A stretch of 64,000 bases of DNA from Listeria monocytogenes (lineage in GTDB: Bacteria > Bacillota > Bacilli > Lactobacillales > Listeriaceae), in contig NZ_LT906436.1 in assembly GCF_900187225.1 (NCBI RefSeq), forward strand, positions 1,612,001-1,676,000. The letters run 5' to 3'. The notes beneath the pieces were generated by a model that made no database searches, had not been told where the DNA came from, and worked only from the letters and a program-made list of their open reading frames with translations. This document shows positions 1,043 to 51,195 of the stretch, piece by piece (positions within the stretch are counted from its first letter, which is position 1; every line of letters begins with the position of its first letter). A program made the translations under genes and the position numbers.

Positions 1043-2090
1043 AGGTTGTTTTATCTAAACCACGAATAAGCGTTGTAATCATTTCTTTCGCAGCAGCATA
1101 GTCATCTACGTGTAAAATCGAATTAGATGAGTGAATATATCGAGCCGGAACACCGATTACCGCACTTGGAATACCACTCAGTGACGTATGCACTTTCCCA
1201 GCATCTGTTCCTCCTGGCGAAACAAAATATTGATAAGGAATTTTATTTGTTTCCGCAGTATCTAGTAAAAACTCACGCATACCACGATGCATAATCATCG
1301 TCCGGTCAAAAATACGCAATAAGAAACCTTGACCAATTTGGCCAAATTGCGATTTATTACCAGTCGTATCATTGGCAGGGCTAGCATCTAGTGCAAAAAA
1401 CAAATCTGGTTTAATCATGTTGGCACTAACACCTGCACCGCGCAACCCTACTTCTTCTTGCACATTCGCCCCAGCAAAAAGTGTATTTGGTAACGATTCG
1501 CCTTTCAATTCTTTCATAAGTTCAATCGCAAGTCCGACACCATAACGATTGTCCCATGCTTTTGCTAAAATTTTCTTCGGATTTGCAAGCGGTGTAAATT
1601 CAGCCACAGGAACAATGAATTGTCCTGGTTTAATGCCGATTTTTTCCGCATCCGCTTTATCATCTGCACCAATATCAATAAGCAAATTTTTAGGATCCGT
1701 CGGTTTACTCCGTTCAGCTTCTGATAACAAATGCGGTGGAACAGAGGCAACCACGCCAATTACAGGACCAATTGGAGTCATAATTTGCACTCGTTGCGCC
1801 TGTAAAACTTGCGGATTCCAACCACCAATTGTTTGAAAACGAAGCAAGCCGTTGTCCGTAATTTGCGTTACCATAAAGCCAACTTCATCCATATGAGCTG
1901 CAACAAGTACACGCGGGCCTTCTTCCGCTCCGTGGCGCACACCAAAAATGCCACCTAGCCCATCTTGGATAATTTCATCGGAAACTGGTTCAAGTTCTTT
2001 TCGCATAAATGCACGAATTCTATGTTCGTCACCCGAAGTACCTTGAAGTTCCGTCAATTCTTTAAACATCGCTAACGTTTCTTTTTCCAT
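1017..2090 (-). CDS. M42 family metallo-aminopeptidase (YtoP-like)
   Basis: A 357-residue cytosolic dinuclear-metal aminopeptidase of the M42 (glutamyl aminopeptidase/FrvX) family, releasing N-terminal residues from peptides. Metal-site motifs are visible in order: AAHMDEVGF (His66, Asp68), AWDNRYG (bridging Asp179), QEEVGLRGA (catalytic Glu211 with Glu212), ALDASPA (Asp234) and the last His in PARYIHSS near residue 319. The length is normal for the family. The ribosome site AAAGAGATGAT precedes the ATG. It forms a unit with the small membrane protein downstream. The divergent neighbour is the PepSY protein gene, as at the Bacillus ytoP-ytzB locus. Confidence 0.9.
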
Positions 2091-2287
2091 TAATAATCAT
2101 CTCTTTCCGTCTGAAATCTCTTTTATTATAGCAAATATTATCCGTTTCCGCTCGCCTCACTTCTCTCTTTTACCGAAAGCGCGTTCAAAAATCCTTTTAT
2201 AATCAAAAATTTGTAGTATAATGATTAAAAGAGATGTTCGTAGTAGCATCCTTTAAAAAGAATAGGAAACACTAGGGAGGAAAAGCG

Positions 2288-2599
2288 ATGAACTGGAAAG
2301 CTTTCATTGCAGGCGTTGGAGCAGGAGCAGCGGCTGGACACCTTGTTTATCATTATTTACTTAGCGATAAAACAATTTCTGGGGACGTCATCTTAGAAAA
2401 GGTAAAAGATGCATTCAAGCAAGAAGGACCAATCGAAGGTTCTTGGATTCAACTTAAAAAACAACATTACAAAAAATTCGCGATTGATACTTTCGTTTAC
2501 CACGGCGGAATCACTTGTATTCGCGAAGGCGAGAAGAAGCAATTCGAATTTATCGCAGACGCCAACACAGGAACAATCATCGACGTATATTTAGCTTAA
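2288..2599 (+). CDS. PepSY-domain membrane-anchored small protein (YtzB-like)
   Basis: A 103-residue protein with a Gly/Ala-rich N-terminal helix (residues 3-25) that could be an uncleaved anchor, then a single PepSY-like module ending in the typical FEFIADANTGTIIDVYL. PepSY domains are thought to modulate peptidases or to act outside the membrane. A role linked to the divergent aminopeptidase is only suggested by position. The ribosome site GGGAGG lies 7 nt before the ATG, and a TATAAT element stands at about 2217-2222. A strong bidirectional terminator follows. Confidence 0.75.
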   Translation: MNWKAFIAGVGAGAAAGHLVYHYLLSDKTISGDVILEKVKDAFKQEGPIEGSWIQLKKQHYKKFAIDTFVYHGGITCIREGEKKQFEFIADANTGTIIDVYLA

Positions 2600-2606
2600 A
2601 AAATAA

Positions 2607-2637
2607 AACGATTCCCCATGCGGGGAGTCGTTTTTTT
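2607..2637. terminator. Bidirectional terminator between ytzB-like gene and csoR-like gene
   Basis: An 11-bp stem (2607-2617 with 2622-2632, loop ATGC) flanked by seven T on the plus side and an A-rich stretch on the other, so it can end both converging genes. Confidence 0.9.
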
Positions 2638-2884
2638 AGCGGATAAAACTATCTATTTTCTTTTTAATTACTGCTTCGTCCGTTTCGCCTTGTTCAATTA
2701 ACTCCTTCATTTGTTCAGTGTAGATTAATTTTGCGGCAGCATCCATCGCTTTTTTCACCGCTGCTATTTGTTGCATAATAGTTTCTAAATCACGCTCTTC
2801 TTCTGTCATCGTTTTTATAGAACGTACATGTCCTTCTATCTTAGCGAATCGCGTTACCAGCGCCTTCTTTTGCTCGATATCCAT
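2636..2884 (-). CDS. CsoR/FrmR-family (DUF156) regulator lacking metal-ligand residues
   Basis: An 82-residue all-helical protein of the CsoR/RcnR/FrmR family: RFAKIEGHVRSIKTM at residues 10-24, a central QQIAAVKKAMD helix and a charged tail. The Cys-His-Cys ligands of copper-type CsoR are absent. The helix-2 cysteine position is Leu (RDLETIMQQ), the His/Cys pair of helix 3 is replaced (YTEQMKEL), and the protein has no cysteine at all, so it cannot sense Cu(I) or persulfide in the usual way. I chose ATG at 2884 because GGGGG lies 5-8 nt upstream. Longer in-frame starts have no ribosome site. It appears to be alone in its transcription unit; the target gene is unknown. Confidence 0.8.
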   Translation of the reverse strand: MDIEQKKALVTRFAKIEGHVRSIKTMTEEERDLETIMQQIAAVKKAMDAAAKLIYTEQMKELIEQGETDEAVIKKKIDSFIR

Positions 2885-2912
2885 ATATACCCCCTTATAG
2901 TATACCATGCGA

Positions 2913-2994
2913 TAACCCCCTACCCAGGATATCATATTGGCTATTTTAAAGTATTTATAAATATAATTATACCACAAAATAAAAATACCCTCAA
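2913..2994 (-). promoter_or_regulatory. Promoter and G-rich element ahead of the csoR-like gene
   Basis: -35 TTGAGG (2989-2994), 17-bp spacer, -10 TATAAT (2966-2971) on the minus strand. Downstream of the predicted start, around 2913-2932, lies CCTGGGTAGGGGG, which resembles the G-tract operators bound by CsoR/FrmR proteins, so autoregulation is plausible. The -35 overlaps the U-tract of the upstream gene's terminator. Confidence 0.6.
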
Positions 2995-3017
2995 AAAAAG
3001 AAGTGATTTCTCACTTC
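2993..3017 (-). terminator. Terminator of the ytnP-like gene
   Basis: A 7-bp stem GAAGTGA/TCACTTC (3011-3017 with 3000-3006), 4-nt loop, then seven U on the minus strand. Confidence 0.8.
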
Positions 3018-3869
3018 CTAATTCCGATGTTCTATTTTTAATTCAGCCTTAACATTTCCATTTTCAGCAATTTGAACTGCTCGGAATCTGGAATCATGGT
3101 AAGATAAAAACCAATAATTCGCACCGAAAGTTTGCTTGAAAATTGCTTGTTTAGCAGAGATGGAAGTCATTGGATAATCATCATACGCAGTCACCCAAAG
3201 TACATTTTGATGAGCAAAAGTTGGGAAAATATCCGCCATATGAATTGCTTTTTCTCCATCTGATTCTAGCCAAATAACCGAATGCCCATTGCTATGTCCA
3301 CCAGTGTGCGTCATTTTAATTGCATCGTTGAATTCTTTTTCTTTGGTAAATGTATGGATTTGTCCTTCTATCCTTAGCCAGTTTTCTTGCCAGTAAGTTG
3401 CTTTGGAACGAATGTTGGGGTGTTGCATCTCTTCCCATTCTGTTTCCGAAGTCCAAATTTCCGCGTTTGGAAAGATGGAGTAATCATTCCCTTCTTCCGA
3501 AATGCCTGTCAGACCTAACACGTGATCGAAGTGCAAATGCGTCATCAAAACATAATCAATGTCTTCTGGAGCGATGGATAATTGCGCCAAATCTTCTAGC
3601 ACGAATGATTCTTCCGTCACTCCATAATTACGTTTTTGTTTTTCTGTAAGTCGTCTGTTCCCTAACCCACTATCTATTAAATAATTTTTGCCTAAGTACT
3701 GAAAAAACATCGGATCGGTTACGTTAGCCAATTGATTTTTGTCGTTTACTGGATATTTTTTCTCCCATAAAGGTTTTGGTACAACGCCAAACATTGCTCC
3801 GCCGTCGAAATGAGTATATCCTCCACGTAACCAATAAATCTTTATTTTACCAATTTGAATGGAATCCAC
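3018..3869 (-). CDS. ytnP: Metallo-beta-lactamase-fold hydrolase, YtnP/lactonase-like
   Basis: A 283-residue metallo-beta-lactamase-fold enzyme with the zinc motif THLHFDHVLG, further ligands in THTGGHSNGH and an Asp in HMADIFPT. The closest family I know is YtnP, a lactonase-like enzyme reported in Bacillus to interfere with Streptomyces signalling. The acyl-homoserine-lactone lactonases are cousins. The actual substrate here is unknown. I chose GTG at 3869 because GGAGG lies 8 nt upstream; the alternative TTG at 3884 overlaps that ribosome site. The neighbours trmB and the APH-like kinase lie upstream on the same strand, as in Bacillus, but a terminator separates trmB from this gene. Confidence 0.85.
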   Translation of the reverse strand: MDSIQIGKIKIYWLRGGYTHFDGGAMFGVVPKPLWEKKYPVNDKNQLANVTDPMFFQYLGKNYLIDSGLGNRRLTEKQKRNYGVTEESFVLEDLAQLSIAPEDIDYVLMTHLHFDHVLGLTGISEEGNDYSIFPNAEIWTSETEWEEMQHPNIRSKATYWQENWLRIEGQIHTFTKEKEFNDAIKMTHTGGHSNGHSVIWLESDGEKAIHMADIFPTFAHQNVLWVTAYDDYPMTSISAKQAIFKQTFGANYWFLSYHDSRFRAVQIAENGNVKAELKIEHRN

Positions 3870-48213: not shown

Positions 48214-48245
48214 AGCATAACGATTCTTGTATGAATCGTTATGCT
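48214..48245 (-). terminator. Hairpin after the NTR-like secreted protein gene
   Basis: A perfect 13-bp stem AGCAUAACGAUUC/GAAUCGUUAUGCU (48214-48226 with 48233-48245). The tail is not U-rich, so termination efficiency is uncertain. Confidence 0.6.
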
Positions 48246-48260
48246 TAATGACTAGCTTAT

Positions 48261-48881
48261 TTAATTTTCTTCTGTAGTAACTTGATTTTCAACAGCCTCT
48301 TCATATAGTTCAAACTCTTCTGTCTTGCTCACTTCTTTTTCTGTATCTATTTTTTTGGTTTTTTCATCGAAAGAAATAGTGGAATTCCCCCCTGCTACAA
48401 GTAAAGATCCATCGTCTTGCGTATAAGCAGTAAATATGTAGATATTGCCTACTTCCGGGAGCTGATCGTCTTCAAAAACGTCATAAGCAGATCCATCTTC
48501 CCGAATTCCACCTTGTTTTTGAAGTACAATTTCTTTATCCATTGCTAATTCATTTTTTAAATTCGAAATTACTTCTACCTTATAATTTGTATATGCTTCA
48601 CCAATATATTTAATTGAATCATCTTCTTGTTCAATTGGTGTTTCATTTTTGTAATCTGTTCCAGTTTCTTGCGTTACTTTCCCTACAAACACATAATCCG
48701 CATCGCCAACAACTTCATTCGGATTATCTATATCCAGTGTATAATCGGAATGAATAGCATATGTTGGTACTTCTTTTTTCTCAGGTTTAGTCTTTTCGGC
48801 ATGCGTGTTTACAGTTAAGAAACAGCCGATACCTATAATACTAATTGTTGAAACGATGATTCCCATAGTTGTTTTTTTCAA
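48261..48881 (-). CDS. Secreted protein with NTR/TIMP-like pattern
   Basis: 206 residues with a signal peptide (SPase I site after THA, about residue 28), a charged linker, and a core that alternates as in OB-fold NTR/TIMP domains: VVGDADYVFVGKV (about 57-69), NYKVEVISNLKNEL (about 100-113), then IYIFTAYTQDDGSLLVAGG (about 148-166), and an acidic tail. I do not recognise a named family with certainty, and the cysteines of animal TIMPs are absent. The gene follows a secreted matrixin-like protease by 14 bp, so it may bind or inhibit it. The start is TTG at 48881 after AAAAGGGG. Confidence 0.6.
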   Translation of the reverse strand: MKKTTMGIIVSTISIIGIGCFLTVNTHAEKTKPEKKEVPTYAIHSDYTLDIDNPNEVVGDADYVFVGKVTQETGTDYKNETPIEQEDDSIKYIGEAYTNYKVEVISNLKNELAMDKEIVLQKQGGIREDGSAYDVFEDDQLPEVGNIYIFTAYTQDDGSLLVAGGNSTISFDEKTKKIDTEKEVSKTEEFELYEEAVENQVTTEEN

Positions 48882-48895
48882 TTTAAGTACCCCTT

Positions 48896-49390
48896 TTAAT
48901 ATTTTTTATATGCTGCATCATAGGATTGTTTATCATTCGTAGATAAAGTTGTTTTGGATGTGCTATATTGATACATTACGTCACTAGAAGCATTATGCCC
49001 GAGTCGCAAGCCATGTCCAAGCTCATGTGTAGCAACATTTTGTTTTCCAGCATTATTTTTTTTATCCATATTTTTCTTGTTAAAAGTGATTTTCCCGTTA
49101 CTATAAGTCGTTGCATTGATATTATTATTCGCTGAAATATCACTACAATATACGTCTGATTTATTCGCTCCTGAAGCTGGTCTAATAACCCCTTTTTTAT
49201 AAGCATTCCAAGTATTAGCACCAGATTGAATAAATGACATATACTTTGAATTCCCCGAGTAATCTAGGTGTTTACTAGAATCTACTAAGTCCCAGCTATT
49301 GATTTTTGCCGCAGCATCCGCTTCTTGTCCTGGAAGTAAAATACTCCACAAACATACAAATGCTACTAATAATGATAAAATTTTCTTCAT
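48896..49390 (-). CDS. Secreted matrixin-like zinc metalloprotease
   Basis: 164 residues: signal peptide cleaved near ADA (residue 26), then a compact metzincin domain. The zinc motif is THELGHGLRLGHN (His122, Glu123, His126, His132), followed by the Met-turn SDVMYQYS (Met139). The usual Gly of HExxHxxGxxH is Arg129, an odd change at a tight turn. There is no propeptide cysteine switch and no extra domain, so it is a minimal protease. Likely secreted; substrate unknown. GAGGGAG stands before the ATG. It is cotranscribed with the NTR-like gene downstream and preceded by a 180-nt leader and a promoter module shared with another operon. Confidence 0.8.
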   Translation of the reverse strand: MKKILSLLVAFVCLWSILLPGQEADAAAKINSWDLVDSSKHLDYSGNSKYMSFIQSGANTWNAYKKGVIRPASGANKSDVYCSDISANNNINATTYSNGKITFNKKNMDKKNNAGKQNVATHELGHGLRLGHNASSDVMYQYSTSKTTLSTNDKQSYDAAYKKY

Positions 49391-50763: not shown

Positions 50764-51195
50764 TTAGTTACTAATGGTTCCTTCGATTTTCACTGTGTAC
50801 CAATCCATCGCTTTTTCAGCTTTTAAATAGTATTTACTTGATTTCGCATTTGCTTTTGTTGGAAATTCTTTTGTCTTATTTTTATAAAAATAATTCTTTC
50901 CTGAAGGAATACTGACTCTGCCAAAGTAATCATCTATTCCAAATTTCTCTTTGTGCAAAGTTACCGTCGAGTTGGGGTTACTATTCCCGAAACCTTTAGC
51001 CGAAACGTTCAATTTAACCGTTCCTTTGTTCAATGAATGATATTTTCCATTTGTAGCACCATTTACAGCTCGACGGTTCATCGAAATGGCTACTTTATTA
51101 CTTGCTGCATAGACTGTAATGATTGGGGTTGCTATAATGCTTACACCTACAATGAAAGCCATTAGTCCTTTTAATAATCTCATCTTTCTGTTCAT
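50764..51195 (-). CDS. Secreted basic protein of unknown function
   Basis: 143 residues: signal peptide cleaved near VYA/A (about residue 30), then a basic, probably all-beta domain of about 110 residues (KVAISMNRRAV, TVKLNVSAKGF, KNYFYKNKTKEF, WYTVKIEGTI), with no cysteine. From its position beside tsf it may be the Listeria secreted factor reported as Lmo1656 (sorting nexin 6 binder), but I cannot confirm that from sequence. AAGGAGG stands before the ATG, and the promoter module shared with the metalloprotease operon lies just upstream. Confidence 0.7.
   Translation of the reverse strand: MNRKMRLLKGLMAFIVGVSIIATPIITVYAASNKVAISMNRRAVNGATNGKYHSLNKGTVKLNVSAKGFGNSNPNSTVTLHKEKFGIDDYFGRVSIPSGKNYFYKNKTKEFPTKANAKSSKYYLKAEKAMDWYTVKIEGTISN

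Follow-up and report, generated by a model that had tools for sequence, protein, structure and literature searches.

What does a secreted bacterial metalloprotease do with an exported neighbor that appears to share the fold of animal matrixin inhibitors? The question is raised by two genes within a 64,000-nucleotide stretch of the Listeria monocytogenes chromosome (NZ_LT906436.1, positions 1,612,001 to 1,676,000; hereafter the window). The first encodes a small matrixin and the second a partner protein which begins 14 bp further on, both on the minus strand. An initial annotation had described a secreted metzincin with HExxH motif, Met-turn and signal peptide followed after 14 bp by this partner, and the sequence and open reading frames confirm it. 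Its overall reading holds in part: the NTR/OB fold proposed for the partner is supported by structure comparison, whereas its claim that such a pair would be new in Listeria is refuted by a homologous L. monocytogenes pair, Mtz-Tim, whose protease cleaves its partner (published in 2021; PMC8235301). The kind of system is already known. As far as searches of the open-licence literature reach, what is new is that Listeria has a second such pair, at the tsf locus, that structural evidence supports the NTR fold, that profiles connect the partner with Tim, that the spread extends over Bacilli into Actinomycetota, and that the domain occurs on proteins encoded after sigma factors resembling the extracytoplasmic function (ECF) type. 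The window pair is absent from the papers found in these searches.

The protease and its partner

The protease carries the zinc ligands H122, H126 and H132 and the catalytic E123 of the HExxHxxxxxH pattern, all invariant in an alignment (A6) of the window protease with those of 11 of 19 loci. In the predicted structure, residues 27-164 (138 aa) form a complete catalytic domain with Met-turn and metzincin fold, and the match to Pfam Peptidase_M10 scores 28 bits (27.7 in the genome search) over a curated cut-off of 24. Position 129, where the zinc loop usually has Gly, is indeed Arg in the window protease, as first pointed out by the initial annotation; among 23 aligned orthologs, 16 have Arg and 7 have Gly. 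The Gly of the HExxHxxGxxH loop is usual, yet dispensable for passing the Pfam cut-off. A cysteine-switch role for C82 was considered and dropped, since 7 of the 12 rows of A6 lack this cysteine.

For the partner, structure prediction and structure comparison support an NTR/OB fold of the TIMP type, the fold that had been called from sequence alone; no confident model with a fold outside OB/NTR was obtained. The predicted fold is common to animal TIMPs and other NTR domains, including agrin NtA, PCOLCE1 and complement C-terminal domains. Direct sequence searches for TIMP yielded no usable match. Pfam and NCBIfam hold no family for the window partner, and it does not reach the score of the TIMP family (PF00965), which matches just 2 of 17 partner relatives (best E 0.049) and is found neither among the families listed for 18 partner sequences nor among the 25 of 52 families listed for 48. 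A PDB sequence search returned no match for the single partner, and none or unrelated weak ones for partner profiles. PHROGs gave no match for the window partner and scattered weak matches across 48 sequences, and no viral structure in BFVD matched at E <= 0.001. The domain belongs to a broad family of NTR-like domains for which there is no Pfam model among those searched.

TIMPs place an N-terminal cysteine on the zinc of the protease and carry a set of disulfides. The window partner differs from them: it has no cysteine from residue 40 onward (2 of 48 sequences have any), it shows no significant sequence similarity to animal TIMPs, and an inhibitor role for it is putative. At two loci, L140 (1444-2322) and L139 (952-1896), the partner resembles, by eye, two tandem NTR-like domains.

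Table 1. Features of the protease-partner locus, in window positions.
Feature	Position	Strand	Basis
Protease gene: secreted matrixin (M10) metalloprotease, 164 aa	48896..49390	-	Open reading frame
Protease signal peptide, about residues 1-26, ending ADA; no prodomain after it	49313..49390	-	By eye; residues 27-164 fold as whole catalytic domain
Zinc motif HELGHGLRLGH, residues 122-132	48995..49027	-	Sequence
Met-turn DVMY, residues 137-140	48971..48982	-	Sequence and alignment
Shine-Dalgarno-like AAGGGG ahead of partner start, inside the 14-bp gap	48890..48895	-	By eye
Partner gene: exported protein of predicted NTR fold, 206 aa, TTG start	48261..48881	-	Open reading frame; predicted NTR fold; homology to Tim via intermediates
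Partner hydrophobic N-terminal segment, residues 6-24, signal peptide or anchor	48810..48866	-	Kyte-Doolittle peak 2.22 at residue 6
Putative tether stretch PTYAIHS, residues 39-45	48747..48767	-	Alignment with Tim cut segment; VIA-align ranges
Predicted NTR/TIMP-like domain of partner, residues 43-203	48273..48755	-	Predicted structure and fold comparison
Terminator-like hairpin, 13 pairs, 3' of partner stop	48214..48245	-	Pattern scan

Kinship with Mtz-Tim

Mtz and Tim of L. monocytogenes 10403S (LMRG_00713-00714) are a secreted metzincin and a TIMP-like lipoprotein. The cut that Mtz makes in Tim lies at about residues 49-55 and frees Tim; it depends on the catalytic Glu of Mtz. Greater sensitivity to phage lysis and to wall-active agents needs Mtz, Tim and an active Mtz, while deletion of mtz-tim had no effect in the models tested there. 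The genes adjoin cI/cro-like XRE genes and, within Listeria, are confined to the sensu stricto clade. A lipobox is reported for the Tim of Listeria and is lacking in homologs from other Firmicutes. In the literature, the authors found no TIMP-like protein described from bacteria; their assignment of Tim to TIMP came from Phyre2 (all PMC8235301).

A pair of this type lies at 1,245,862 in the window genome, which consists of one contig (2.86 Mb). Its Mtz is 87% identical to that of locus L044, and it shows the Met-turn AIMLD, the lipobox LTAC and an adjacent XRE gene. The window pair is therefore a second, separate chromosomal Mtz-Tim-type pair in the same genome, and the presence of two pairs means that one could mask an effect of mtz-tim deletion. 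As in Mtz-Tim, a metzincin gene is directly followed by the gene of an exported TIMP-like protein, and the partners are homologous via intermediates. There are also differences. The window pair lies between tsf, Lmo1656-family and VanZ genes on one side and two ATP-binding cassette (ABC) transporter genes on the other, whereas mtz-tim sits beside cI/cro-like XRE genes. The window protease is 28% identical to those of L041 and L044 and carries Arg129, and the window partner lacks the lipobox of Listeria Tim.

On profile evidence, the window partner is homologous to Tim through a set of six intermediates, five of which adjoin a matrixin (L138 does not). The intermediates match the window set with a probability of 97.6% (E 3.8e-12) and the Tim set with 98.4% (E 1e-14); the window set merged with the intermediates matches Tim with 96.9% (E 1.9e-10). 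Controls with one profile reversed gave 0.1-3.5%. A comparison with both profiles reversed gave 74.8% and is not a null, because the columns stay in step. Compared directly, window and Tim scored 31.0, while the highest of 200 column shuffles reached 20.3. A confident model and the fold comparison place a Tim homolog in the predicted NTR/TIMP fold.

Other relatives were found as well. In the genus, a third type of matrixin-partner pair, with the zinc motif HEVGHxIGLSH, occurs at L098 and L105 (both 1495-2654), L106 (862-2043), L107 (1468-2653) and L108 (1477-2652); profiles relate its partner to Tim (98.2%), and the type was not seen in the window genome. Relatives of Mtz at 56% identity are found at L096 and L111 (genome G035) and L097 (genome G012), one of them in a genome placed by the search in another genus of the family. 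Locus L113 (1057-2612), in the genus, encodes a further metalloprotease, HEFGHSLGLGH; the next gene specifies an exported protein of 309 aa that matches no Pfam family.

Pairing, spread and selection

Across 60 related genomes, partner and protease are present in an identical set of 18. Two neighbors without a common function, brought together by chance, are a most improbable explanation. It would account for the partner domain occurring without a matrixin in some genomes, and it is contradicted by the 19 of 19 places in Listeriaceae where the partner adjoins the protease, by a second pair in one genome, and by the same gene order in several families of Bacilli and on Rhodococcus plasmids. Chance pairing was rejected because of these counts from Listeriaceae and the Bacilli survey. 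Two of the Listeriaceae proteases are interrupted, in G004 by a run of N and in G033 into two pieces; the former is not read as a pseudogene, because the record carries runs of N there. The alignment of Listeriaceae partners (A1) covers 17 of the 19 loci (L005 and L007 omitted).

A wider partner profile matched 33 of 398 Bacilli genomes, in 42 rows. Of these, 19 have a same-strand matrixin immediately upstream, 3 are preceded by an ECF-like sigma factor, and 20 have neither. Among the last, 14 were inspected, including several fragments, and 6 had no locus to inspect. M10 matches occur in 95 of the 398 genomes overall, and the adjacency count draws on 18 M10 places picked by eye in genomes that also hold partner rows. 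At 19 loci from named genomes, 8 of which overlap records counted in the other sets, an intact matrixin lies directly upstream in 11, an interrupted or masked one in 2, and none in the visible flank in 6; alignment A5 joins the window to 18 of these (L065 omitted). On plasmids, 6 loci from 11 records were inspected, of which 3 have an intact matrixin directly upstream, 1 a truncated one and 2 none. Two Rhodococcus plasmids encode the domain behind a matrixin or an M57-annotated protease with HExxH, while the two Gordonia plasmids inspected have no matrixin upstream. No fusion of the two domains was seen among the printed partner frames (longest listed 343 aa), in which no search was aimed at fusions.

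In the phage collection, the protease matched three records, all unannotated 'Listeria phage' contigs of 1.7-6.2 kb with 94-99% identity, and the partner matched two of the same contigs and a 4.7-kb fecal contig labelled Bacteriophage sp. (39%). These matches neither support a phage origin of the pair nor argue against one. Two records labelled Listeria phage, OR848502.1 and OR848455.1 (H1 and H2, 5-6 kb), carry the chromosomal pair region and look mislabelled, as does NZ_LR134401.1 (H7), an 810-kb 'plasmid 4' which carries the same region with rpsB and tsf.

Both genes are under purifying selection. Nonsynonymous divergence (dN) from the window protease is 0.01-0.17 against a synonymous divergence (dS) of 0.14-3.1, with dN far under dS in 10 of 10 comparisons. 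For the partner, the ranges are 0.04-0.21 and 0.37-2.8, with dN far under dS in 9 of 10 comparisons; the tenth is saturated, and dS is not computable in one. These values were obtained for 10 of the 22 other pairs, and dS is near saturation in several. Over 23 pairs, protease and partner distances correlate with r = 0.97, mostly as a result of common descent. At L008 (1498-2628), dS to the window is 0.14 for the protease gene and 0.61 for the partner gene, so a recombination edge probably lies inside that operon.

The L. farberi genome encodes two pairs. From loci L068 (1602-3154) and L069 (1378-2872), the second more closely resembles the pair of Enterococcus termitis (83% and 75%) than that of the window type (73% and 67%), and a small membrane gene precedes both it and the E. 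termitis pair. Transfer as one unit is probable.

Working of the pair and its genomic setting

The cleavage of Tim offers a guide to the function of the window pair. In an alignment of 48 partners, the Tim cut segment GVVSYHG, whose numbering is taken from relatives and is accurate to one or two residues, matches the window stretch PTYAIHS. In all 15 listed TIMP rows, the first residue of the TIMP in the fold alignment is residue 1 (chain numbers 301 and 1001 being counted as such), and it pairs with model residue 15 or 16, which is partner residue 43 or 44. The place where the homolog is cut is thus close to the place where the TIMP chain begins, because residues 39-45 include the residue paired with TIMP residue 1. 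The start of the TIMP chain touches the zinc of the protease.

These positions are consistent with a shedding model, to which we give slightly better than even chances: the NTR domain docks, its tether is cut, and the domain is released. The protease would be exported as a small matrixin without prodomain or cysteine switch, while the NTR domain would be held at the membrane's outer face by its hydrophobic N-terminal segment together with a tether some 20 residues long. The domain would dock on the protease as TIMPs do, with the tether running through the active-site cleft; cutting of the tether would free the domain, by itself or along with the protease, and its target would be the cell envelope or what surrounds it. 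Of these elements, both genes and their pairing, the predicted folds of the two proteins, the homology to Tim via intermediates and purifying selection were computed here, and cleavage near residue 50, release, and the effects on lysis and wall-active agents come from the literature on the homologous pair. Anchoring, docking, cutting and cut position would by analogy resemble those of Mtz-Tim. The window partner is presumably anchored at the membrane. A lipobox pattern is found in 14 of 39 partner N-termini (Paenibacillus, L. newyorkensis, Rhodococcus and others), with three more lipobox-like by eye; the remainder, including that of the window, have a hydrophobic segment only, cut or uncut.

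Several results weigh against this model and the assignments beneath it. The partner has no Tim-like lipobox and a possible signal-peptidase site (THA/E), so it may be freely secreted. Nineteen sequences underlie its model, the TM-scores from Foldseek at ranks 1-8 are low (0.38-0.57), and rank 10 is Rpa1, which has another OB fold. A direct single-profile comparison with Tim gave a probability of 0.13% and then 9.75%, neither significant, and larger sets gave 41% (P 2.9e-4); the direct link is weak and homology leans on the intermediates. Confidence in the five protease models runs from 85.5 down to 67.4, so that the models differ, and Arg129 could signify altered protease activity. Finally, the domain is not solely a matrixin partner, being matrixin-free in 6 of the 19 named loci and 14 survey rows and linked to sigma factors in 3 more.

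A tentative alternative, close to the protease-inhibitor pair of the initial annotation and with a modest chance of being right, is that the partner is an inhibitor or immunity protein. Its NTR domain would block the protease on the surface of the producing cell, as TIMPs or the potempins of Tannerella do, and so protect the envelope while the protease acts outside. TIMPs use their N-terminal zinc cysteine, whereas the NTR part of the partner has none; some loci also encode the domain without a matrixin in the vicinity. The homologous partner is cut, and its phenotypes require partner and active protease jointly, unlike those expected of a simple inhibitor (PMC8235301). Potempins are lipoprotein inhibitors encoded directly before their protease, such as potempin A with karilysin in Tannerella forsythia (PMC7296668). 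Compared by description rather than by fold, the window partner differs in following its protease and in lacking a lipobox. A further bacterial complex is that of snapalysin from Streptomyces caespitosus, whose partner in 4hx3 is sermetstatin according to the structure title.

The pair has also been considered as a signaling module, in which a tethered NTR sensor is cut or bound by the exported matrixin in a site-1 step and the window partner is a reduced form without cytoplasmic output. At three of the 42 Bacilli rows (L050 and L051, both 1381-2025; L052, 1345-1989), the same NTR-like domain forms the ectodomain of a membrane protein that spans the membrane once. Its gene directly follows that of an ECF-like sigma factor, as the gene of an anti-sigma factor would. 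In Cerasibacillus (L079, 695-1722 on the minus strand and 1863-3058 on the plus strand), an ECF sigma and anti-sigma-like pair is divergent from a matrixin-partner operon, and the ectodomain of the anti-sigma-like protein does not look NTR-like by eye. The anti-sigma role is suggested by the layout and a look-alike N-terminus, with no Pfam support (of the three loci, L050 was checked). The window partner has about five residues before its hydrophobic segment and no adjacent sigma factor. We regard such a module as improbable here.

The shedding model can be carried further, into a proposal that we consider speculative and rather unlikely. A TIMP-style dock might feed a bacterial matrixin rather than stop it: the membrane tether, in place of the zinc-binding cysteine of TIMPs, would pass through the cleft and be cleaved there. 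The N-terminus so exposed would then lie at the place of TIMP Cys1, and the product could be both a released signal and a product-like inhibitor. The pairing, seen in Bacilli and Actinomycetota with the domain also after ECF sigma factors, would be older than animal TIMPs. Whether a matrixin-NTR partnership predates animals, and whether the partner is shed or inhibits, become testable with this pair.

The surroundings of the pair are those of a matching L. monocytogenes record, in which the order is rpsB, tsf, Lmo1656 family, VanZ, matrixin family metalloprotease, hypothetical protein and two ABC transporter genes. The hairpin scan found 2 against 1.2 expected in shuffles, so the hairpin behind the partner gene is weak evidence by itself. 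The partner is the hypothetical protein WP_014600888.1 of that record, with 100% identity across 187 aligned residues. Counted along the gene order from the Lmo1656 family member, the protease would be lmo1654 and the partner lmo1653. No publication was found under lmo1654 in the open-licence literature, and lmo1653 is named in one genome-wide association study of growth, among genes with relevant mutations. The gene at 50764-51195 (minus strand) is annotated in the matching record as an Lmo1656 family SNX6-recruiting virulence factor; a VanZ family gene separates it from the pair.
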